NCBI GenBank assembly: GCA_019359315.1
Contig: JAHHHO010000007.1
Span: 62,001-126,000 of the forward strand
DNA: 64,000 bases
Reading direction: 5' to 3'
DNA from: Myxacorys californica WJT36-NPBG1
Lineage (GTDB): Bacteria; Cyanobacteriota; Cyanobacteriia; Leptolyngbyales; Leptolyngbyaceae
Shown here: piece by piece, positions 2,517 to 44,707 of the stretch
How the letters are laid out: each line of letters starts with the position of its first letter
Numbering within the stretch: position 1 is the first letter of the stretch
The notes under the pieces: model-generated
What the model saw: only the letters and a program-made list of their open reading frames with translations
Database searches by the model: none
Told to the model about the DNA's origin: nothing
Program-made: the position numbers and the translations under genes

Positions 2517-3212
2517 TTGCTAAGTAATGTTAAGCAAATGGTTCAAGACCTGCCTTTTAATAGAAACAACTTTTTTAGTGACGACCTTCCCCTTTTACGA
2601 CGAAAGCAATCTGCCTATGAAATCGAAGATTCACCTGGACTGCGGCGCATTCATTGGCAGCTAGGCGACACTGTTATCATTTCAACCTTTTACACACGCA
2701 TTGATCAGGCGTGCTTCTTGTGGGGCATCATTTCTGCGATTATTTTCTTTACGGCTCAGTTTGCCTTGATTGACTGGAGTACTCAGGCGATTCTCTGGTC
2801 GGTGCTGACGTTAGCAGGCACGATCGTTATGGTAGAGCGATCGTACGTTTGGCGAACCGTTGAACCCATCAGTCAAGTGGTGAGTGCTTGGGCTCGGCTA
2901 ATGACGCTCGGTATCGTCATCACAGATTTAAGTATTTTCTTGGGTTGGGGACAGGTTCTCGCTTCTCTTTGTGCAATGTGGCTGGTGCTGAACGCGATCG
3001 GGTATTTCTACAGTAGCTGGAAGATGCGATCGCGCGCCTTCAGCCTGATGGGCCTAATGCACCTTGCTGGAATTGCAGTCCTTCCCTATGTCGGAGTATG
3101 GCAATTCGTTGTGACCGGCGTTCTGATTGGATTTAGTGCACTACTGCTTGCAGAACTGCAATGGGATTCTCATGACATCTGTGCCCATCTATTAGTTCAG
3201 TCATCTAACTAG
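2517..3212 (+). CDS. Hypothetical multi-pass membrane protein
   Basis: The reading frame gives 231 residues from a TTG at 2517, or 224 from the first ATG at 2538; neither has a clear ribosome-binding site, so the start is uncertain. After a soluble N-terminus of about 60 residues there are about six hydrophobic segments (for example GIISAIIFFTAQFALI, ILWSVLTLAGTIVMV, AFSLMGLMHLAGIAVL and FVVTGVLIGFSALLL). I recognise no named family; such proteins are often cyanobacteria-specific. HIP1-type GCGATCG motifs and normal codon use support it as a resident gene. Confidence 0.7.
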   Translation: MLSNVKQMVQDLPFNRNNFFSDDLPLLRRKQSAYEIEDSPGLRRIHWQLGDTVIISTFYTRIDQACFLWGIISAIIFFTAQFALIDWSTQAILWSVLTLAGTIVMVERSYVWRTVEPISQVVSAWARLMTLGIVITDLSIFLGWGQVLASLCAMWLVLNAIGYFYSSWKMRSRAFSLMGLMHLAGIAVLPYVGVWQFVVTGVLIGFSALLLAELQWDSHDICAHLLVQSSN

Positions 3213-3375
3213 CACAGTCTTAATCTTTCTTATGCTCGTTTACGAGCTAAAACGGTAAAGTAGTATACATAATGCCAATCAAATTCTGAAGCTGATCAAG
3301 CTGTAACCGTTGGCGAAGAAAACGCTAATAGTTAAGCAGAATGAGGTGACGCCAAATTTGTAGGTGAAGGTGACT

Positions 3376-3408
3376 AGGTGGCACGAAATACTGTGCCACC
3401 TTTTTTTT
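3376..3408 (+). terminator. Strong intrinsic terminator, far from the nearest gene
   Basis: AGGTGGCAC (3376-3384) and GTGCCACCT (3393-3401) form a stem followed by eight T residues. The hairpin lies about 165 bases after the membrane protein stop and only works in the + direction, since its other side has no T tract. It either ends a long 3' UTR or belongs to a small RNA between 3250 and 3408. Confidence 0.85.
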
Positions 3409-3429
3409 GCGCTCATCAGCAGGTTAGCG

Positions 3430-4416
3430 CTACTCTAGTCCGAGTTCTCGTTTAAGCAGACTCACCGACTTGCTGACTACAAAGTTCTCACAACAAATCA
3501 CTTGAGGTGGGCGAATAATATCTTCTCGTGCTGCCGACACCGTAGCCTTGACCATCGCACAACTCATCTCATCGAAACTAAAGATGGTTTGGGCACTACG
3601 AACGATCGCATTGAGCTTATATTTGTCGTTGACTTGTGCCGTCATGACTAGCAAGTCATCACCCCGCAAACTGTGAATGATCACCTCCGCAACGCCGACT
3701 GTGCCGGAACTGAGGCTGACGATACCAAGGCAGGTTCCTTTCTGCATTGCCTTGACAATTTTGATTTCTTTTTCAAAATCATAAATATCAATCGGAATCA
3801 CACGAGCCGCTCTTGGCGTTGCGATCGCTTCTGCCTGAGCAATAAAGTAGCGGCTCGTCACAACGGTGCTAGAACGAGTCTGATCAAGAACTTGACTCAG
3901 TTCTTCCATCGGCACAAGCTGCATCGGAATATTGAGCGCCCGTTCTAGTTCGCGCAGTAGCACTTCACCATTACCAATGTCGTGCATCGGCGCTGTGACT
4001 AACACTTGAGCGCTACAGCGCAATCGCCAATCAATTTCTGCTAGAAACAGTTCCCGTGCTTGACCGAGAGAACAGCCCTGCTTCAACAAATCATCAAGGC
4101 TATTTTGAATAATTTTGTGAGCTAAGGGATACTGGTCAAGTAAGGGAGATTTGATGTGAATCGCCGCATCATGTCCTTGATCTCGAACATATATTCCTGA
4201 TCCAGCATGGGCATCAACGACACCAGCATCTTCTAACTGCCGATAAACCTTACTAATGGTGTTGCGATGCAGTCCGGTTTGCATCGCGAGTTGACGGGTA
4301 CTCGGTAAGCGATGTCCAGGCGGAAACTGCCGTGAGGCGATCGCAAACAAAATCTGATTGTAAAGTTGATTGGATGCCGGGATATCGCTATCTGGCTGAA
4401 TTTGAAATTGCACCAT
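3430..4416 (-). CDS. plmA: GntR-family regulator, PlmA type
   Basis: This 328-residue protein has an N-terminal GntR winged helix (residues 12-80, with PPGHRLPSTRQLAMQTGLHR and TISKVYRQLEDAGVV) followed by a cyanobacteria-specific effector/dimer domain of about 240 residues. The N-terminus closely resembles PlmA of Anabaena and Sll1961 of Synechocystis. In those organisms the protein affects plasmid maintenance and photosystem stoichiometry, and PlmA binds the PII-PipX complex. Several cysteines sit in the C-terminal domain (TCLG, SCAM, VICCE). Length matches the family. A perfect inverted repeat 38 bases upstream could be an autoregulatory site. The orthology call is from memory of the family. 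Confidence 0.75.
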   Translation of the reverse strand: MVQFQIQPDSDIPASNQLYNQILFAIASRQFPPGHRLPSTRQLAMQTGLHRNTISKVYRQLEDAGVVDAHAGSGIYVRDQGHDAAIHIKSPLLDQYPLAHKIIQNSLDDLLKQGCSLGQARELFLAEIDWRLRCSAQVLVTAPMHDIGNGEVLLRELERALNIPMQLVPMEELSQVLDQTRSSTVVTSRYFIAQAEAIATPRAARVIPIDIYDFEKEIKIVKAMQKGTCLGIVSLSSGTVGVAEVIIHSLRGDDLLVMTAQVNDKYKLNAIVRSAQTIFSFDEMSCAMVKATVSAAREDIIRPPQVICCENFVVSKSVSLLKRELGLE

Positions 4417-4867
4417 GCCAGCGCCTCAAGACTTGCTCACCTAATTTATCAGGGAATTCCGACGTTGGAATTCGCTTAATATTCCTACCATCTTAGGTGA
4501 CAGACTGATTGTGAAGTTAAGTGTTTTCTCTGGTCTCTAACCCGCTTTACCACCTCTAGTCGGTATTTTTTCTGACTTTGGTTAAACGTATGAAATGTTC
4601 CCTACAAGTTAAGCAGGGTTAGATGTTTCGAGGGATATCACTATAAATCCAAGGTGTTTCTATACGGTGATTTACGGTTACCTTTAGCGCTAAAGTACGG
4701 AGAAGAAATTTTCAAGTTCATAGAGTTTTTTAGAAACAAAAAGTTTTGTTTACTCATCTCAGTTTACTCATCCTCAGAGTATGGCAAGCTTCTAAACTGA
4801 CGCTCGCTACTATCATGAAGCTAATCTTGCGTCAGCACCCTTTAATTTACGCTCGGTTCAAGGCACA
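4417..4867. other. Divergent intergenic region, 451 bp
   Basis: This is the region between plmA (minus) and the dienelactone hydrolase gene (plus). It must hold both promoters. Apart from the inverted repeat at 4454-4473 I see no ORF, RNA gene or further palindrome of note; several AT-rich -10-like blocks exist but none is decisive. Confidence 0.5.
4454..4473. promoter_or_regulatory. Perfect inverted repeat upstream of plmA (candidate operator)
   Basis: GAATTCC (4454-4460) and GGAATTC (4467-4473) are separated by six bases, 38 bases before the plmA start. The geometry suits a dimeric regulator such as a GntR protein. No operator of this sequence is known to me, so autoregulation is inference. 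Confidence 0.4.
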
Positions 4868-5605
4868 ATGATTGAAATTCGCTCAACTCATCCCAAAATT
4901 TCTAACGGTTCCCTGCAAATCGATGCCTATCTTGCAGAACCGACTGAGGCAGGACAGTACCCTGCGATCGTCGTGATTCAAGAAGTGTTTGGCGTCAATG
5001 CTCACATTCGAGAGGTCACGGAGCGCATCGCCAGAGAAGGGTATGTCGCGATCGCGCCTGCGATCTATCAGCGTACCGCCCCCGGATTTGAGGTCGGCTA
5101 TAGCGATGAAGAGCTAAAGCTTGGTCGCTCTCACAAAGACCAAACGACAGCAGAGCAGTTATTGAGCGATGTCCAAAGCGCAATCGCCCATCTCAGAGCC
5201 TTACCCTCGGTTCAGCAAGATGCGATCGGGGTGATCGGGTTTTGTTTTGGTGGACACGTTGCTTATCTAGCCGCCACTTTACCAGATGTGAAGGTGACAG
5301 CTTGTTTTTATGGCGCTGGCATTCCTGTGATGACGCCGGGAGGAGGAGTTCCAACAATTGCTCGGACTCCTGACATCAAAGGAACGGTTTACGGATTTTT
5401 TGGTACTCAAGATCCCCTCATTCCAGCCGAACAGATCGATCAAATCGAGGCTGCTCTGCAAGCTCACGGCATTCGTCACCGACTATTCCGGTATCCTGCG
5501 GGACACGGATTCTTTTGCGATCAGCGTGATAGCTATAGCGCGATCGCAGCAACGAATGCTTGGGAGCAGGTCAAAGAGCTGTTTGGACAACTCAAGCGAT
5601 CGTGA
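4868..5605 (+). CDS. Dienelactone hydrolase family protein
   Basis: This 245-residue alpha/beta hydrolase has the dienelactone hydrolase (carboxymethylenebutenolidase) pattern: the nucleophile cysteine C126 in GFCFGG, D182 in GTQDPLIP, H213 in AGHGFFC, and the conserved glutamate E39 in QEVFG that activates the cysteine in this family. All catalytic residues are present, so it should be active on a small lactone or ester; the physiological substrate in cyanobacteria is not known. There is no signal peptide, so it is cytoplasmic. It converges on pheT, with 29 bases between the stop codons and no clear terminator. Confidence 0.9.
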   Translation: MIEIRSTHPKISNGSLQIDAYLAEPTEAGQYPAIVVIQEVFGVNAHIREVTERIAREGYVAIAPAIYQRTAPGFEVGYSDEELKLGRSHKDQTTAEQLLSDVQSAIAHLRALPSVQQDAIGVIGFCFGGHVAYLAATLPDVKVTACFYGAGIPVMTPGGGVPTIARTPDIKGTVYGFFGTQDPLIPAEQIDQIEAALQAHGIRHRLFRYPAGHGFFCDQRDSYSAIAATNAWEQVKELFGQLKRS

Positions 5606-5634
5606 TTTAAAGACGTGCCATCAGCCCTCAATCT

Positions 5635-8076
5635 TCAGCTTCTAAGTTCGACTTGGAACTTCTCCGCCAACGCATCCCGGACTTTTTGGTGAACTGGATC
5701 AACATCCTCATCGGTCAGCGTGCGATCGATGGCTCGATACACCAATCGAAACGCTAAACTACGCTGCCCCTCTGGCACTCGGTCTCCTCGATATTGGTCA
5801 AACAACTCCACAGACTCTAACAATGTGCCGCCCGCTTTTGTGATCGTGCGTTGGAGGTCTGCAACCGCAACCTTAGTCGAAACGTAGAAGGCAATATCGC
5901 GATCAGATGCCGGATACGTGGAGTAAGGCTTAAACACTGGCACGAGGGCTTCATCCGTTTCTAGATGCCGAATCGCAATTCCCAAATCGAGTTGAAAGAG
6001 ATACACTTCATCGGGTAGACTGCGTTCTTGACGGAGTTGCGGATGGAGTTGTCCAAAGGTGCCCAAGCGATCGCCTCTAACCCAGAGCGAGGCTGTCCGT
6101 CCTGGATGCAATCGCTCATCCCGGCGATCGGGCTGATACTCGACGGGCAACCCGACTCGCTCAAACACGCCGTCAAGCAAACCTTTTGCCTCAAACCAGG
6201 TGAGGGGTTGGTCTTTGCCGCCCCGAATCCACTTGCCTTGGCTCGGATCGCCGCCCAAAATGCCTCCTAAATACTCCGATTCGGTCAGCCCTTCTTCTTC
6301 GTTCCAGAACACATGCCCAAACTCGAATCCGTTGAGTGCGCCGTTGCCTTGTTCCTGATTGTATTGGAAGGCATCGATCAAGCCGTCAATCAAATCTGTT
6401 CGCAGTGCAGAATATTCGGTAAAAAGAGGATTTGCCAGAATGATTTGACGCTCGCTACTGGGTTTGCCGAGTGAATAGTGAATTAACTCGGTCAATCCTG
6501 CTCCTCGAAACGCTTCCCGCAGATGCCGCGTCACGTACTGCTCGATCGAGAGATATCCTGCCTCCGTTTTAGTTGGCAAACTATCGTAGAAGTTGTTGTA
6601 CCCGTACAACCGCGCCACTTCTTCAATTAGATCAATTTCCCGTTCTAAATCGCGGTAGCGGTAGGGCGGAACGGTGACTGTCCAGGTTCCGGGAGCGCTG
6701 ATCTCCAATTGACAACCTAAAGCACTCAACGTCCGTTCAACATCAGTCGATTGAAGTTCGGCCAAATCGTCTTCCACTTCGACCATGCCCAAAACTTGAT
6801 TGATTCGCTCCAAGCGCAACTCAATCGATCGGGTTAAGGCCCCCCCACTCGGACGGGTATCTACCATTTCTTGGGCAACAACTTGTCCTCCCGCCAGCTC
6901 GGTGATGAGTTTCACCGCCCGACGACATGCTGTTTCGAGTTCGGCTAAATTAATGCCTCGCTCATAGCGGGCAGAGGCCTCCGTTCGTAAGCCCTGAGCG
7001 CGAGCCGAACGCCGAATCGCCGCCGAATCAAAAATGGCTGATTCCAGCATCACGTTCTGCGTTCCGTCATACACTTCGGTTTCCTCGCCGCCCATAATGC
7101 CTGCTAGCATCGTCGGCCGATCATTAGCCGTAATCAAAAGCGCTTGCTCTAGCAGTTTGCGATCGTTGCCATCCAAGGTTTTTACCACTTCTCCTGGCTG
7201 CGCAAACCGGACGCCCATCGTCAACGGTTCACTCCCGGCTACGGTGACCAAGCGATCGCGATCGAACGCATGCAGCGGCTGTCCCCATTCCAACATGATG
7301 TAGTTGGTAACATCCACCACGTTGTTAATTGAGCGAACCCCAGCAGACTGCAATCGCTGCTGTAGCCAAGCAGGAGACGGCGCAACCGTCAATCCCTCAA
7401 TGACTGTTCCAATATAGGCTGGGCAAGCTTGCGGTTCAGAAATCTTGAGTGCTAACGAGCCGCTCTTGGTCGGTTTAACAGAGGGAGCGTCAGGTAACCG
7501 TAGGGGGCTGCCAGTCAGAGCGACAATCTCCCGCGCAATGCCAACCATGCTCAGGGCATCGGCTCGATTGGCGGTAGAGGTCAGGTCGAGAATTACATCA
7601 TCAAGTCCTAGCAGCGATCGGGCGTCACTTCCAGGTTTGACTGACCCGACTGTAGACGAATCGAAAATGTGGATGCCGTCCGATTCTTTTGTTAACCCGA
7701 CCTCTGAGAGCGAACAGATCATGCCTTCAGACGGTACACCTCTCAGTTTGGCAGACTTAATTTTTAGATCTACTTTGGGCAAGTACGTTCCTAACGTCGC
7801 CACAGCAACGTAAATGTCGGCTCGGACATTTGCCGCGCCGCAAACAATTTGAGACGGAGCTTCACCGCCAATATCCACCTGACACACACTCAGACGATCG
7901 GCATTTGGGTGCTGTTGGCGGTCTAACACTTTTCCGACAACGACGCCATCTGCCCACGTGCGCCGATCTTCAATCTCTTCGACCTCAAACCCTGCCATCG
8001 TCAACATGTCGGCTAAGGCTTCCGGTGACAGGGATATATCAACAAGCTCTTGCAACCAGTTCAGAGAAATCCGCAT
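5635..8076 (-). CDS. pheT: Phenylalanine--tRNA ligase beta subunit
   Basis: This 813-residue protein is the beta chain of the alpha2-beta2 PheRS. It shows the full bacterial layout: an N-terminal [14 protein letters not shown] block, an EMAP/OB tRNA-binding domain (about 40-150, [20 protein letters not shown]), the B3/B4 editing region (about 210-390, including [10 protein letters not shown] and [19 protein letters not shown]), B5, the catalytic-like core, and a C-terminal anticodon-binding FDX-ACB domain ([17 protein letters not shown]). It charges tRNA-Phe together with PheS, which is not in this window, so pheS and pheT are unlinked here, as is usual in cyanobacteria. Confidence 0.97.
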
Positions 8077-16152: not shown

Positions 16153-19100
16153 TCACTTATGCAGCCACACTCGAATCAGCGAGAGCAGTTGCTCGGTATC
16201 GACTGGCTTTGTGATGTAGTCCGAAGCTCCCGATTCGAGACACTTTTCGCGATCGCCCAGCATCGCTTTCGCCGTCAGCGCAATAATCGGTAACGTCGCG
16301 AACCGGTCAATTTGGCGAATCGATTGTGTCGTTTCGTAGCCATCCATCTCTGGCATCATCACATCCATCAGCACCAGGTTGATGTCTGGATTGTCGTTTA
16401 GTCTAGCAATGCCATCGCGACCGTTTTCAGCATAGAGAACCTGAATTTGATAGCGCTCCAGCAGACTCGTGAGGGCAAAGATATTTCGCACATCGTCATC
16501 CACAATCAGCACTTTCTTGCCGAGCAAGATCGGATCGTTTTGCTGGAGGTTCTCTAGCATCTGTCGCTGGGCAGGAGGTAAATCTGCCTGAACGCGATGG
16601 AGAAACAGGGCGGTTTCGTCGAGCAAATGTTCTGGCGATCGCGCATCTTTGATGATGATGGTGTCAGAGATGCAGCGCAGTTCCGTTTCCTCTTGGGAGG
16701 TTAGCTCTCGACCGGTGTAGACGATGATGGGCAAGTAACCAAGGCTGGGTCTATGTTTAATTTGCTCGATTAGCTCAAATCCGTTCATATCGGGCAGATT
16801 CAGATCCAGAACGAGGCAGTCGAAGTGGTTGGACATAAGCATTTCTAGTGCTGCTGTGCCAGTTCCCACAGTTGTGCTATCCACATCATCGTGACCGATG
16901 AGTTCTGTAATGCTGTCACGCTGAACTTCGTCGTCTTCAACAATTAGCAGTGCCTTGACGGGGCGATCGACAAACTCTCGAATGCGGGCGAGGGCATTTA
17001 AGAGAACATCGCTGCTGATAGGTTTTTGCAGACAGGCGATCGCGCCTTGTCGCAGACAGCGTTGTAGCCCTTCTTCGACCGACATGATGTGAACTGGAAT
17101 GTGGCGGGTATTGGGATCGTGCTTGAGGCGATCTAACACCGTCCAGCCATCGAGAACGGGTAGCCGAATATCGAGCATGATCGCTGTGGGTCTGAACTGC
17201 TGCGCCATTGCCAGTCCGACATTGCCACGGGTTGCCACTAACCCTTTAAAGCCTTCTTGCCGTGCCATATCGAGCAAGATTCGGGCAAAGTTGAGGTCGT
17301 CCTCAATGATCAGCAAGGTGCGATCGCCGGGTTGCAGGATTTCGCGATCGTCCTCGATCACGATTGGTAGGGCGATGTCAAGCATAGATGCCGATTGCGT
17401 AGGGTCAGAAGGTAGGGTCGTTGTAGAAGTCGCAGCAGGCGGGACGTGTTGAGCCGTAGCTCCTGTCCCAGAGGAGAATAGCGCTTGCATTCTCTCTCTC
17501 CTATCTGCGTTTTCCACCCCAACTTCTCGACGCACTAAATACGTCTGGGGTAGATACAGCGTGAAGGTGCTTCCCCGTCCGGGTTCACTCGTGAGGCGAA
17601 TCTCACCTTTTAGTAGACGAGCAATTTCGCGACTAATCGATAAGCCTAACCCCGTTCCGCCGTAGCGACGAGACGTAGTGCCATCAGCTTGCTGGAAGGC
17701 TTCAAAAATCACATGTTGTTTGTCGGGGGCAATGCCAATTCCGGTATCCGAGACAGCAAACGCCAGCACCCCGTCAGCCTGATTCAAGGCTTCATGGTCA
17801 TAGCTCCAACCGTGAGTCACTAGACTAATATCCAGTGCCACTCGCCCTTGCTCGGTGAACTTAAACGCATTCGATAGCAAGTTCTTCAACACTTGCTGTA
17901 AGCGTTTTGAGTCGGTATAGAGCGTGCGAGGCAGAGAATCGTCTAGATGAATTTGAAAGTCGAGTTTGCGGTCTTGTGCAACTTGGCTAAAGGTGCGATC
18001 AAGGTGATGCCGTAGGTCAGCAAAGGACGTTGGCTCAATCTCGATCGACATCGTTCCCGATTCGATTTTTGCTAGATCGAGAATGTCGTTAATTAGCCCT
18101 AATAGATCATTACCTGATGTGTAAATGGTGTGGGCATACTCCACTTGCTTTAGCGTTAGATTGTTCTCGCTGTTGTCAGACAAAAGCCGCGATAGAATCA
18201 GCAAGCTGTTGAGCGGCGTCCGCAATTCGTGGGACATGTTTGCCAAAAATTCGGACTTGTATTTAGAACTGAGAGCAAGTTGTTCGGCTTTCTCCTCTAG
18301 CGATTGCCTTGCTTGCTCAATTTCTTGGTTCTTGCGTTCCACTTCGCGATTTTGTACGGCTAGTAGTTCTGCTTTCTCCTGTAGTTCTTCATTGGTTTGC
18401 TGCAATTGCTCCTGCTGATTTTTGAGCAATTCTTCTGATGCTGTTAGAGATCGCGCTTGCTGCTCTAGCCGTTGATTGGTTCCGGTGAGTTCTTTTTGCT
18501 GAGTTTGTAGTTCTTCTGCTAACGATTGCGATTGCTTCAGCAATTCTTCCGTTCGCATACTCGCGGCGATCGTATTGAGCACGATCGCAATACTTTCGGT
18601 CAGCTGGTCAAAGAAGGTCAGGTGAATTTCGCTAAAGCGGCGGAAGGAGGCAAGTTCGATCACCGCCGTCACTTGTCCCTCAAATAAAACGGGTAGAACG
18701 ACCGCATTGAGCGGCGCTGCTTCGCCTAGCCCTGAACTGATCTTGATGTAATCGTGCGGTACTTCTGTAATCAGAATCCGCTCTTTTTCTAAGGCGCATT
18801 GTCCTACGAGTCCTTCGCCCAAGGCAAACCGGTTTGCGAGATTTTTGCGCTCCCGATAGGCGTAGGTGCTGAGTAATTTCAGGTAACCAGGATGGGCGTC
18901 GCCCGTTTCCATGAGGTAAAAGACTCCGTGTTGCGCGGAAACTAGAGGAGCAAGTTCCGACAGAATCAGTTTGGAAACGGTTTCGAGATCGCGCTGACCT
19001 TGCAACATGCGCGTAAACTTCGCCAGATTCGTTTTGAGCCAATCTTGCTCAGTGTTCTTTTGGGTGGTTTCGCGCAAGTTGGCAATCATCTGGTTGATGT

Positions 19101-22017
19101 TGTCTTTGAGAATCGCGACCTCACCCTGGGTTTCAACCGAGATCGAGCGGGTTAAGTCTCCCTTCGTCACCGCCGTTGCGACTTCTGCGATCGCTCTTAC
19201 CTGAGTCGTGAGATTGGCCGCCAGTTCGTTTACGTTATCGGTTAAGTCCCGCCAGGTTCCTGATGCACCCGGAACTTTCGCTTGACCTCCCAGCTTGCCT
19301 TCAATACCCACTTCGCGCGCTACAGTCGTCACCTGATCGGCAAACGTGGCCAGGGTGTCGATCATTTCGTTAATCGTATCTGCCAACGTTTCGATCTCAC
19401 CTTTTGCATCGAGCATGAGCTTGCGCTTCAAGTCGCCATTTGCAACGGCCGTTACAACTCTAGCAATGCCTCGCACTTGGGCAGTGAGGTTACTTGCCAT
19501 CGAGTTCACGTTGTCGGTGAGGTCTTTCCAAGTTCCGGCAACGCCTGTGACTTGGGCTTGACCTCCTAATTTGCCTTCAGTTCCCACCTCGCGTGCGACC
19601 CGCGTTACTTCAGAGGCGAAGGAACTGAGTTGATCCACCATCGTATTGATGGTGTTTTTCAGATCCAAAATCTCGCCTTTGACATCCACCGTGATTTTTT
19701 TGGACAGGTTGCCGTTTGCGATCGCGGTTGCCACTTCAGCAATGTTCCTCACCTGGGCGGTAAGGTTACCTGCCATCAGGTTGACGTTATCGGTGAGGTC
19801 TTTCCAAGTTCCGCCTACCCCTCTGACATAGGCTTGTACACCGAGTTTTCCTTCGGTTCCCACCTCTCTCGCGACCCGCGTTACCTCTGAGGCAAACGAG
19901 TTCAACTGATCCACCATCGTGTTGATCGTGTTTTTCAGTTCGAGAATCTCGCCTTTAACATCCACCGTGATTTTTTTGGACAGGTCACCGTTTGCTACAG
20001 CGGTCGTCACTTCGGCAATGTTTCTCACTTGGGCAGTCAAACTACCTGCCATGAAGTTGACGCTGTCGGTGAGGTCTTTCCAGGTTCCAGCCACTCCGCG
20101 CACTTCTGCTTGTACACCGAGTTTTCCTTCAGACCCTACCTCTCGCGCCACCCGCGTTACCTCTGAAGCGAACGAGTTCAACTGATCCACCATCGTGTTG
20201 ACTGTGTTTTTCAGTTCGAGAATCTCGCCTTTAACATCGACCGTGATTTTTTTGGACAGGTCACCGTTTGCTACTGCCGTTGTCACAGCAGCAATGTTTC
20301 TCACCTGGGCGGTCAGACTACCTGCCATGAAGTTCACGCTGTCGGTGAGGTCTTTCCAGGTTCCGGCAACTCCGCGCACTTCGGCCTGTACACCCAGTTT
20401 TCCTTCAGACCCCACTTCCCGCGCCACCCGCGTTACCTCTGAGCCGAAGGAACTGAGCTGATCCACCATCGTATTGATCGTGTTTTTCAGTTCAAGAATC
20501 TCGCCTTTAACATCGACCGTGATTTTCTTCGACAAATCACCGTTTGCCACAGCCGTTGTCACTTCGGCAATGTTTCTCACTTGGGCGGTGAGGTTACCTG
20601 CCATCGAGTTCACGCTGTCGGTGAGGTCTTTCCAGGTTCCGGCAACTCCGCGCACTTCTGCTTGTACGCCGAGTTTTCCTTCGTTTCCCACTTCCCGCGC
20701 CACCCGCGTTACTTCTGAGGCAAACGAGTTCAACTGGTCCACCATGATATTGATGGTGTTCTTCAGTTCGAGAATCTCGCCTTTAACATCAACTGCAATT
20801 TTTTTAGAAAGATCGCCATTTGCTACAGCCGTCGTTACTTCAGCAATGTTTCTCACTTGATCCGTTAAGCTACCTGCCATGAAGTTCACGCTGTCGGTGA
20901 GGTCTTTCCAGGTTCCCGCAACTCCGCGCACTTCTGCCTGACCACCCAGTTTTCCTTCTGCACCCACCTCGCGCGCCACCCGCGTTACTTCTGAGGCGAA
21001 GGAGTTCAACTGATCCACCATCGTGTTGACTGTGTTTTTCAGTTCGAGAATCTCGCCTTTAACATTAACGGTGATCTTTTTGGACAGGTCACCGTTTGCT
21101 ACAGCGGTTGTCACTTCGGCAATGTTTCTCACCTGAGCGGTGAGGTTACCTGCCATCGAGTTCACGCTGTCGGTAAGGTCTTTCCAAGTTCCAGCAACGC
21201 CTTGTACATCCGCTTGTACACCGAGCTTCCCTTCGTTTCCCACCTCGCGCGCCACCCGCGTTACTTCTGAAGCGAAGGAGTTCAACTGATCCACCATCGT
21301 ATTGATCGTGTTTTTCAGTTCGAGAATCTCGCCTTTAACATCGACCGTGATTTTTTTAGAAAGATCACCGTTTGCTACAGCGGTTGTCACTTCGGCAATG
21401 TTTCTCACCTGAGCGGTGAGGTTACCTGCCATTGAGTTCACGCTGTCGGTGAGGTCTTTCCAGGTTCCAGCAACGCCTTGTACATCCGCTTGTACACCGA
21501 GTTTTCCTTCGGTTCCCACTTCCCGCGCGACCCGCGTTACCTCTGAAGCGAAAGAGTTCAACTGCTCTACCATCGTGTTCACGATTTGAGCCGTTTGTAG
21601 AAACTCACCCTGCAATGGTTTGCCTTCGATTTCAGTAGCGATCGTATGAGACAAGTCACCATTGGCAACCGCTCGAATCACCCGAGTCGTCTCTGCCATC
21701 GGTTGCACGAGGTCTGTAATTAGCGTATTGACCGATTCAACACTCGCCTTCCAAGCGCCTTTCGCACCTCCAACTGACCCCCGTTCGTAAATTTTGCCTT
21801 CTTTACCAACGACGGTGCTAATTCGCTCTAGCTCCGTTGCCATCTGTTGGTTCATCTCGATGATTTCGTTGAGGGTATCGGCAACTTTGCCTGCGACGCC
21901 AATTTGATCGGTGGGCATTCGCACAGAAAAGTTACCTTTTTTCACCTCGACGAGGGTCCTGAGAATTTGCTTGAGATCCAAGCTATCGGTATCGCTGGTA
22001 GCAGGTGCAGTTGGCAT
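16153..22017 (-). CDS. Giant soluble poly-HAMP hybrid histidine kinase with three receivers
   Basis: This 1954-residue protein has no signal peptide or membrane segment. Residues 1 to about 985 are a tandem HAMP array. It alternates about eleven GDLS-type units ([12 protein letters not shown]) with ten EGK-type units ([12 protein letters not shown]); the latter recur every 92 residues from residue 170 to 906. A GAF domain follows (about 1000-1155), then a Q/E-rich coiled coil (1160-1250), HisKA with H1263 ([13 protein letters not shown]), an HATPase (GIGIAPD, GLGLSI), and receivers with D1616, D1738 and D1885. The HAMP layout recalls fungal group III osmosensing kinases such as Nik1/DRK1, which are also soluble. 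The downstream REC-HK-REC gene is a likely relay partner. The input signal is unknown. Confidence 0.93.
19560..21560. repeat. 276-bp coding tandem repeats of the HAMP array
   Basis: Successive copies are in exact 276-bp register: TGATCCACCA begins at 19631, 19907 and 20183, and the same block recurs in the following copies. Several neighbouring copies are nearly identical over long stretches, including synonymous sites, which points to recent duplication or gene conversion. Copies near the ends of the array are more diverged. Confidence 0.9.
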
Positions 22018-22306: not shown

Positions 22307-22627
22307 TTGCAAGATCAATCACCTAATAACAGCGGCAGTGAGCCAGCGATCGATCTCAGTCAGTTGGTGAAGGCTGTGGTAAAAGTCGTGCTGAAGGCAA
22401 AGCAGACACAGAATCCTGACGAGGCTCTAGTTATTCGAGATGAGTTACATCGTCTTCCAGATCAGGTAATGACCGAGGTTCTGAATCAGGTCATGCTAGA
22501 ACTGGTGCAGATTGATCCAACCTTGTGTCGCTGGTTTATTGTGGATGTCTTTCTGCGAGATGCCGATCCAGAAGGCAGGGCAGATGTAGCAGAGCGAATC
22601 AATGTGATGATGGCAGAGTTGCAATGA
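22307..22627 (+). CDS. Hypothetical small acidic helical protein
   Basis: This 106-residue protein starts at a TTG with AGGA seven bases upstream; no in-frame ATG occurs until well into the conserved-looking part. It is mostly predicted helix (LSQLVKAVVKVVLKAKQTQ, LHRLPDQVMTEVLNQVMLEL, VFLRDADPEGRADVAERI), acidic and soluble. I recognise no family. It sits between the poly-HAMP kinase and the 21-bp repeat array that begins 48 bases after its stop; whether the array is part of its 3' UTR is an open question. Confidence 0.65.
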   Translation: MQDQSPNNSGSEPAIDLSQLVKAVVKVVLKAKQTQNPDEALVIRDELHRLPDQVMTEVLNQVMLELVQIDPTLCRWFIVDVFLRDADPEGRADVAERINVMMAELQ

Positions 22628-22674
22628 TTGCCTTTTACCTGTCTCGTTGAATCTCAAAGCGTTGTCGATGATAG

Positions 22675-22905
22675 TTTGAGCATCGCGCGTGAATGTTTGA
22701 GCATCGGGCATGAATGTTTAAACTAGGTAAACGAATGTCTGAGCATCACGCGTGAATGTTGGAGGTTCAGCGCTGAATGTTTGAGCATCGTGCGTGAATG
22801 TTTAAGCTAGATGAACGAATGTCTAAGCATCACTCGTGAAGGTCTGAGCATCACGAGTGAATGTTGAAGGTTCAGCGTTGAATGTCTAACCATCACTCGT
22901 GAATG
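22675..22905. repeat. Eleven tandem 21-bp degenerate repeats
   Basis: Eleven units of exactly 21 bp run without spacers, followed by a partial twelfth. Three subtypes are visible. Type A (for example TTTGAGCATCGCGCGTGAATG) is most common; type B (TTTAAACTAGGTAAACGAATG) is unit 3 and, slightly changed, unit 7; type C (TTGGAGGTTCAGCGCTGAATG) is unit 5 and, slightly changed, unit 10. The order is A A B A C A B A A C A. Many units hold a palindromic core, such as TCACGCGTGA or TTCAGCGCTGAA. All three forward frames meet stops, so it is not a coding repeat of a long protein. Confidence 0.95.
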
Positions 22906-23053
22906 TTTGAGGTGAACTAACTCAGGCTTAGCCTTCACTGATAAAGAGTTGATCCTCTACTACCAAATCCGCCGCTATGAAATTTGCTGCCAATGCGTGA
23001 GTCTTGATCAAACCTTGTGACTCTGCCAAAACTTCAACATCGCTAAAACAACA
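22906..23053. other. Non-coding stretch after the 21-bp repeat array
   Basis: About 150 bases with no ORF or further repeat. It leads into the hairpin at 23054-23079. Confidence 0.4.
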
Positions 23054-23107: not shown

Positions 23108-23470
23108 TCAGTCGCGTCTGAGCCGTCGCAATTCCTCTTGCAGATCCGTAACCTGCTGACGCATCTCATCCACGCTCGTTGAAGCTGGGGTTGGTTCGTC
23201 GTCATCTAGAATTTCAATCTTACGAGGCTCTGCCGGACGGGATGGATCAGACGTTACCGTCGGCTGCTGCTGTTGCGCCTTCTGAACCATGTCATCCACA
23301 AACCGACGAGCTTCTTCTGCATTCATCTCGCCACGCTCAACCATTTCATCGGCTAATTTCTGAACCTGCGATCGCAGTTCAGTCAACTTCTCTCCTGCCT
23401 TCTCGCCCGCATAAGAGGCAACGCCAATTCCTAAATAAACCGCTTTTTGAACCAGATCTCCCAAACCCAT
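23108..23470 (-). CDS. Phasin-like small coiled-coil protein
   Basis: The ATG at 23470 (MGLGDLVQKAV) gives 120 residues and has GGAG ten bases upstream; a TTG three codons earlier is less well placed. The N-terminal half is an amphipathic helix (GEKLTELRSQVQKLADEMVERG ending in NAEEARRFVDDMVQKAQ), like cyanobacterial phasin-family or PHA-granule-associated proteins. A P/S-rich linker then leads to a C-terminal coiled coil (VDEMRQQVTDLQEELRRLRRD). No PHA synthase gene is nearby, so granule binding is not supported by context. It is cytoplasmic and the function is uncertain. Confidence 0.65.
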   Translation of the reverse strand: MGLGDLVQKAVYLGIGVASYAGEKAGEKLTELRSQVQKLADEMVERGEMNAEEARRFVDDMVQKAQQQQPTVTSDPSRPAEPRKIEILDDDEPTPASTSVDEMRQQVTDLQEELRRLRRD

Positions 23471-23597
23471 AGTTTTCAAGCTCCATGTTGAATAATTCCA
23501 AGATACGCAGAATTGATCGGGTTGCCCAGTAGAGAACGGTTGATTTGCTGTAGAGAAAACCGTCTACACCTTGGAAACAAAAGTGGTTTAAAACAAG

Positions 23598-23695
23598 GTG
23601 ACCCGGAGACTACGCCTATCGTGAGCATCCCGTATTGCTGCTACCTTCCGGTCCTGACAAAGTTTGGGCGTCGCGATCGCATAGATCCGAGTCAC
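23598..23695 (-). ncRNA. ffs: Signal recognition particle RNA (4.5S/scRNA)
   Basis: The minus strand contains GTCAGGACCGGAAGGTAGCA, the near-universal SRP domain IV loop that binds Ffh (compare GGTCAGGTCCGGAAGGAAGC in E. coli). The ends pair as a 10-bp stem: GTGACTCGGA at the 5' end (23695-23686) with TCCGGGTCAC at the 3' end (23607-23598), allowing one G-U pair. Total length is about 98 nt, normal for bacterial 4.5S RNA. A T-rich tail (TTGTTTT) follows the 3' stem. This RNA guides membrane and secreted proteins to the translocon co-translationally. Ends are inferred from pairing. Confidence 0.93.
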
Positions 23696-44113: not shown

Positions 44114-44707
44114 CTATTGCTCTAAAGTCGCCACAGCCGGATCGGGAGTTGCCACAGGCGAATCGGGAGTTGCAATGATGGACACTTCCACCTCGTCTTC
44201 CTCAGGCTGTGCCAACTTCACTTTCACCCCTGGGCCAAAAAAGTTGGTCATCTTCTCCTGTCGTTGCGTCCACACTTCAAATGGCAAATAGGAGGAATCA
44301 AACAGGAGAACCAACGTATAAGCTCCATAGGTGCTTTCTTCGCGGACTGCCATCAGTTCAGGACGTTGTTTCTCGATTGGGCTGAGTCCTAAGTAGCTTA
44401 AGGCGCTATCGAAATGTGCTTTTTGCCCATACCGAAAGCGAGTTACATCATTAAGAATTTGGGTCTGAGTCTTAGTCGCTTGCGTTTCTCGCAGCGCTAG
44501 CACCTCTGGCGTCGTCTGCGTCATGAATGGAACAGGTTTTAACTCAGTAATCTTGAGCGCAATTCCACCTAAGAACAACGGAATGCCGTAGAAAAAGCCG
44601 ATCATGTTGAGCGCGGCATAATCGAGCAGATAAGCAGCGATCCCGATCACGGTGACGACACCACCGGCAGAAAGTAATAGCAGTCCGAACGGGAGTTTAC
44701 GGAACAT
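44114..44707 (-). CDS. DUF2854 family membrane protein
   Basis: From MFRKLPFGLL (ATG at 44707) this is 197 residues; the frame extends upstream but overlaps the divergent thioredoxin-like gene, so the shorter form is preferred. Two membrane helices lie near residues 7-30 and 33-51, followed by a soluble domain (about 60-170) with FRYGQKAHFDSALSYLGLSP. The C-terminus is a low-complexity V/A/T/P/D repeat (SPVATPDPAVAT). The family occurs in cyanobacteria and plastids; its function is unknown. Confidence 0.78.
   Translation of the reverse strand: MFRKLPFGLLLLSAGGVVTVIGIAAYLLDYAALNMIGFFYGIPLFLGGIALKITELKPVPFMTQTTPEVLALRETQATKTQTQILNDVTRFRYGQKAHFDSALSYLGLSPIEKQRPELMAVREESTYGAYTLVLLFDSSYLPFEVWTQRQEKMTNFFGPGVKVKLAQPEEDEVEVSIIATPDSPVATPDPAVATLEQ

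Follow-up and report, generated by a model that had tools for sequence, protein, structure and literature searches.

An orphan array of a cyanobacterial 21-bp satellite family whose home copies lie beside the gene of an uncharacterised protein

Background

Tandem repeats of constant size (20–21 or 52 nt) and variable sequence have been described in many bacteria, Cyanobacteria among them, by Subirana and Messeguer (PMC8161180). These repeats have no known function, and their describers suggested a protein that needs a constant repeat size and polymerises on the DNA, or transcribed small RNAs; an earlier survey is given in PMC6749651. Cyanobacteria also carry dispersed, intergenic tandem repeats of other unit lengths, the heptanucleotide STRR and the 37-bp LTRR repeats (the latter named in PMC2408588). 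Arrays of direct units beside the gene of a protein that binds them are found at the iterons of plasmid Rep proteins and at ParB/ParR-type centromere sites, and CRISPR arrays likewise stand next to a gene family. To see how a 21-bp array in the cyanobacterium Myxacorys californica WJT36-NPBG1 compares with these systems, we analysed a stretch of 64,000 nucleotides (GCA_019359315.1, contig JAHHHO010000007.1, positions 62,001 to 126,000), hereafter called the window. An earlier note, made from the sequence alone, had described this array as an iteron-like binding array of eleven 21-bp units with palindromic cores, on a chromosome and next to no replication gene.

Structure of the array in the window

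The observation made in the earlier note was confirmed. Twelve 15-mers matching GAANGTYTRAGSWTC with up to 3 mismatches lie at 22670–22915, and every step between them is exactly 21 bp. Read in register, the units run A A B A C A B A A C A, as the note had stated, followed by a diverged twelfth unit. Tandem Repeats Finder (TRF) placed the array at 22674–22911 with 11.3 copies, and also detected an 84-bp higher-order period. The exact core pattern GAWSCTYARACNTTC occurs 54 times in the genome against 0 for the same pattern read backwards, which argues against chance. The window belongs to a 143,873-bp contig (C53) of a 5.97-Mb draft. The array lies between convergent genes, and the features of the locus are:

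22670–22915 (+), 21-bp tandem array of 12 in-register units (11 clear, the last diverged), an orphan array of the same unit type as the array beside the gJ gene on contig C116 (see below)
22685–22865 (no strand assigned), 84-bp higher-order period within the array (TRF, 2.2 copies, 83% matches)
22307–22627 (+), flanking gene, a 106-aa ORF of unknown function ending about 43 bp before the array, with no Pfam family at E ≤ 0.001 and not part of the gJ family
23108–23479 (–), flanking gene, a 123-aa DUF6825-like ORF (E = 0.00073, below the cut-off of that family), convergent with the former and matched in relatives without an array beside it where looked at

ARAGORN found no tRNA in the window, and the only Rfam hit at gathering score was the SRP RNA at 23597–23693. 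Another 21-bp tandem repeat of unrelated sequence lies at 44126–44173 (2.3 copies, 88% matches). A 1954-aa ORF at 16153–22017 (–) contains 7.7 copies of a 276-bp (92-codon) tandem repeat at 19463–21576 and hybrid histidine-kinase-like sequence; these repeats look like HAMP-type modules.

Symmetry, coding potential and folding of the units

The palindromes pointed out in the earlier note (TCACGCGTGA, TTCAGCGCTGAA) are present in single units. However, perfect palindromic spacers are not in excess: they made up 3 of 85 distinct spacers of this genome against 4.9 expected by re-pairing, and 15 of 388 against 26.4 in named cyanobacterial loci, so that selection for palindromic spacers was not supported. 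In contrast, a partial dyad of the whole unit is real. The mean best dyad score was 6.49 of 10 pairs against 5.31 ± 0.29 for column-permuted units, with 0 of 500 permutations as high, and a modest signal was also obtained over 14 unit clusters (mean z 0.87, t 3.2).

The window array has stops in all six frames. Among the home arrays (those beside a gJ gene, see below), 19 of 45 have no open frame, and open frames are fewer than in column-permuted units; the arrays are thus not coding as a class. A heptad origin (21 = 3 x 7) received only weak support, from a comparison chosen after the fact: the lag-7 match in the unit consensus was 0.34 against 0.23 permuted, with a fraction of 0.054 as high. 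A paired change of unit positions 4 and 12 was also considered but was rejected by reasoning, since the two types are nearly reverse complements. With regard to RNA folding, the window array was more stable than column-permuted units (z –4.3 on the + strand and –1.6 on the other), whereas most named-species arrays folded only slightly better than permuted ones; the mean z over 52 strand tests was –1.3.

Occurrence in the genome and in other cyanobacteria

We next searched the rest of the genome for the unit. Nine arrays of the same type were seen, in the window and on contigs C10, C13, C29, C90, C95, C116, C117 and C122. The window array is therefore neither a single special locus nor, as would have spoken for a simple minisatellite, a repeat scattered at hundreds of loci. 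The C29 array lies in frame in a GH38 alpha-mannosidase gene (3027–6551 (–) of locus L064), between the GH38N and middle domains. The relatives' genomes G003 and G005 have same-type inserts there read in another frame, the same-genus genome G001 has a different 21-bp repeat (KEASIHP), and six other relatives examined have a shorter linker without an array (the mannosidase loci compared include L073, L074 and L075). Arrays were also placed inside this gene in L099 (the same genome as G003) and in Stenomitos frigidus (L103). The relatives are cyanobacteria; the same-family genome G003 has gJ genes at the same contig coordinates as G048, the genome of the named locus from Lyngbya sp. HA4199-MV5.

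Other neighbourhoods were also inspected. At the site of the C122 array, G001 is not empty but appears, as read by eye, to hold a 14-bp tandem repeat of other sequence (L280, about 1302–1500). An HTH-NACHT-type gene (Pfam) stands next to the C10 array (L062, 4906–7512), and a homologous ORF next to the C95 array (L066, 2455–4554). The gene that neighbours DUF6825 in G001 (L177) looks by eye like a CorA-type transporter, and a similar ORF lies on C10 near another array of this genome (L062, 7522–8088), so a rearrangement near arrays is possible.

To examine the wider spread, a two-unit pattern with the 6-bp spacer left free was searched in a collection of 84,980 species genomes. It matched 92 stretches, the record titles of which are all cyanobacterial, chiefly Nostoc and relatives plus Leptolyngbyaceae-type organisms, and it matched none in viral contigs. 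The spacer, although left free, is often CG-centred, so the likeness is not only what the pattern asked for. Arrays at the same gene neighbourhood recur across Nostoc-type species with locus-specific units; identity to the array consensus is mostly 0.8–0.95 (lowest 0.50), and the copy number in named loci, among arrays that the pattern could find, is mostly 9–14. Arrays seemed at first to prefer convergent genes (27 convergent against 7 divergent among the 92), but after merging of orthologs the numbers were 5 against 4 and this reading was dropped. The strand of orphan arrays relative to codirectional genes is mixed (22:17).

A protein gene beside the arrays

The main result lies outside the window. 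Clustering of the genes beside the 92 arrays showed one family next to arrays in both Nostoc-type and Leptolyngbyaceae-type genomes, represented by a 163-aa protein (L067, 4302–4793) and here called gJ. One of the nine arrays starts within about 12 bp of the stop codon of such a gene. To determine how regularly the two occur together, we then started from the gene, and scored an array where lag-21 identity reached at least 0.5 over 84 bp within 700 bp. Thirty loci from 13 of 38 relatives' genomes and thirty from 11 named genomes, which had been chosen because they hold arrays, gave 57 unique loci after removal of the duplicates L236, L243 and L253. Five loci found through their array (L100, L120, L128, L132 and L154) were left out, although two of those genes remain because the gene search also found them (L227 and L230). 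Of the 57 loci, 48 have a 3' array, 3 a 5' array only, and 6 none. Of the 54 intact genes, 50 have an array; of the other four, two have one 920–940 bp downstream, one has a perfect 42-bp repeat and one meets a contig end after 387 bp. The best lag between 6 and 40 was 21 in 51 of 51 arrays. As an internal control, the 5' flank passed the threshold in 4 of the 57, and a first control of 3' flanks of other genes gave 2 of 58, one of them in a mannosidase locus. In 45 arrays measured, the median distance after the stop codon was 59 bp.

An independent sample was taken by an even draw over the class, in which 48 of 242 genomes have a gJ match. After removal of 8 duplicates, 42 new loci were examined, of which 22 were best matches and 20 were picked by place, before their flanks were seen, to cover other families. 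Three genes are truncated or interrupted (L288, L333 and L334), leaving 39 intact, and 38 are testable since the 3' flank of L312 is masked. Of these, 27 have the array within 1 kb (22 at 3', 5 at 5'), with best lag 21 in 27 of 27, although six are marginal (0.50–0.52). The remaining 11 have none, one of which (L289) has only 231 bp of 3' flank. Controls at the same threshold, within 1 kb on either side, gave 0 of 41 window genes, 2 of 48 genes in relatives' loci and 21 of 165 genes in repeat-rich named loci away from called arrays. The link is thus strong but not universal. The protein tree has two deep clades, both with arrays, and the three near-set genes (those of the 57 loci) with a 5' array need one change on it, with weak support.

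As to other neighbours of the gJ genes, the commonest cluster (12 of 57 loci) is headed by an ORF that reads like the repeat itself and the next (6 loci) by an HNH-like ORF, as named by eye rather than by a scan for ParA or ParM. In a group of Nostoc-type loci (L097, L110, L118, L119, L125, L127, L139 and L151), an ORF that reads like a DUF559/Vsr-type nuclease stands beside the array, near the gJ gene.

Co-divergence and orphan arrays

Unit similarity tracks protein identity (Mantel, 0 of 999), as judged from 53 gJ loci with arrays, those found through their array included, but only at close range. It was 17.9 of 21 above 90% protein identity, 13.9 at 75–90%, 12.1 at 65–75% and 10.4 at 35–55%, against 9.9 for shuffled units; below about 65% it is near background, and no sequence-recognition code is evident. 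In the genome of the window, all five intact gJ paralogs (on C116, C21, C120, C92 and C4) and the broken copy on C117 carry an array, and the units of the five are unrelated (8–12 of 21 matches) while the period is 21. The array of C4 lies 5' of the gene.

Array types of the three paralogs tested recur elsewhere in the genome. Orphans of the C116 type are the window array and those on C10, C13, C29, C90, C95 and C122, and orphans of the C21 type are those on C26, C114 (two), C45, C122 and C103; none has a gJ gene in the stretch fetched. The C120 type gave sequence matches at further places on ten contigs. Since no gJ gene lies in the window, the window array is an orphan.

The gJ protein

Most intact members are about 150–170 aa. 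Four representatives gave no match better than E 0.03 in Pfam, NCBIfam, PADLOC or PHROGs (none, that is, at the E ≤ 0.01 applied to Pfam, NCBIfam and PHROG), and one gave no significant match in PDB sequences. No match was found in phages or viral contigs. The plasmid collection holds one homolog, on pTs417 of Ca. Thiodictyon syntrophicum, annotated as hypothetical protein; TRF found no array beside it, and a lag-21 value of 0.52 inside the next gene is no better than other lags there. A structure model from 15 rows is predicted to be all-helical but is poor (pLDDT 61, pTM 0.41); it names no DNA-binding fold, and a fold search with it was uninformative (no match at E ≤ 0.001).

Interpretation

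The interpretation offered in the earlier note was partly supported. Unspaced 21-bp units, growth by block duplication, a partial dyad and an element that plausibly needs a protein all held. However, the perfect palindromes are incidental, the array is one of nine same-type arrays found in this genome, and what organises the family is a gene for a ~160-aa protein beside the home arrays, which could not be seen from the window as no copy lies there.

Our analysis demonstrates that in cyanobacteria the gJ genes usually have a tandem array of period 21 directly beside them, that the period stays while the unit sequence changes between subfamilies, and that array types of paralogs also occur as orphans in the same genome, the window array among them. 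The remainder is inferred, including any binding of a protein to the array. In this view the gJ protein, or a partner, would assemble on the array, probably as dimers, one per 21 bp, that is two helical turns. The spacing would be what it needs, whereas the base sequence could drift because protein and home array co-diverge and the array is homogenised by unequal exchange. Home and orphan arrays would act as multivalent binding sites, for autoregulation or for organising the nucleoid, and orphans would arise when home-array DNA is copied into permissive places such as intergenic DNA or a protein linker. We regard this explanation as about as likely as not; it rests on no binding, expression or phenotype data, and the class-sample genes without an array or with a marginal one, the Ca. 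Thiodictyon homolog, the near-background unit similarity at low protein identity, the control positives of repeat-rich Nostoc-type loci, the lack of a fixed strand of orphan arrays relative to codirectional genes and the poor structure model weigh against it. A further reading, which we consider slightly less likely than not, is a cyanobacterial gene–satellite system in which a small protein family keeps and uses its own 21-bp satellite in cis, the satellite spreads in trans as orphan arrays, and the two co-diverge while the two-turn spacing stays fixed, a bacterial parallel to fast-evolving centromere satellites and their proteins. It would supply the missing protein behind at least part of the constant-size bacterial satellites.

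The main rival, doubtful in our view but not excluded by anything found here, is a neutral minisatellite family, in which old tandem repeats without function were spread and homogenised by recombination and slippage, the gJ link reflects a repeat-prone or permissive flank inherited with the gene, and the period of 21 is set by the mechanism that makes the repeats. Arrays do lie in permissive places (intergenic DNA and the mannosidase linker), units of one array are homogenised, orthologous arrays vary in copy number, G001 has different repeats at the C122 site, as read by eye, and in the mannosidase gene, and other 21-bp repeats occur in control regions of repeat-rich genomes. This view does not, however, explain why one protein family carries the arrays so often (50 of 54 and 27 of 38) against 0–13% of other genes, nor why the best lag is always 21 when the sequence is different.

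It is unlikely that the home array is an RNA-level element, a repeated 3' UTR recognised by gJ or another RNA-binding protein, with orphans as transcribed sponges or decoys. Home arrays are mostly 3' of the gene and the window array folds more stably than column-permuted units on the + strand, but some subfamilies have the array 5' (3 of 57, 5 of 38, and C4), orphans lie on either strand relative to codirectional genes and also between convergent or divergent genes, and named-species arrays fold little better than permuted ones. An origin, incompatibility or centromere-type site of a plasmid or of the chromosome appears very unlikely: direct units with partial dyads would fit, but there are nine same-type arrays in one genome plus arrays of other unit types, no replication or partition gene was recognised beside the window array, the linked protein matches no known family, and the unit sequence is not conserved between subfamilies. 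Least likely is that the units encode a seven-residue protein repeat. Although 21 is a multiple of three, several arrays are open in some frame and one lies in frame in a mannosidase gene, the stops in the window array contradict this reading there, and the mannosidase insert is read in different frames in different genomes.

Comparison with known systems

The array differs from CRISPR, as the units abut with no spacer and the linked protein matches no known family, although in both cases a repeat array stands next to a gene family. It resembles Rep iterons and ParB/ParR-type centromere sites in having a repeated unit at a helical multiple beside the gene of a small protein that may bind it. 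However, no homology to Rep, ParB or ParR was found, no Rep gene was present among the window neighbours examined, the unit sequence diverges between subfamilies, and there are many orphan copies. Like STRR and LTRR, the arrays are tandem, dispersed, intergenic and cyanobacterial, but the period is 21 instead of 7 or 37 bp, with only the weak lag-7 signal given above, and the passages on these repeats that we consulted report no linked gene.

The closest resemblance is to the constant-size bacterial satellites (PMC8161180). The period of 20–21, the several families of different sequence but common length within one genome, the scattered occurrence and the non-coding character, with the mannosidase insert as one exception, are all shared. 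Neither our literature searches nor what we consulted of PMC6344855, PMC2408588, PMC8161180 and PMC6749651 links a gene family to 21-nt repeats, and it is to these searches that the claim of an unreported link is limited. The suggestion that some protein needs the spacing becomes directly testable with a gene family that sits beside such arrays in cyanobacteria, and, if right, this would also be a case of a short bacterial DNA satellite with home loci and scattered copies. Compared with the satellites as described, one protein family here sits beside the arrays, and unit types are shared between related genomes rather than strictly species-specific.
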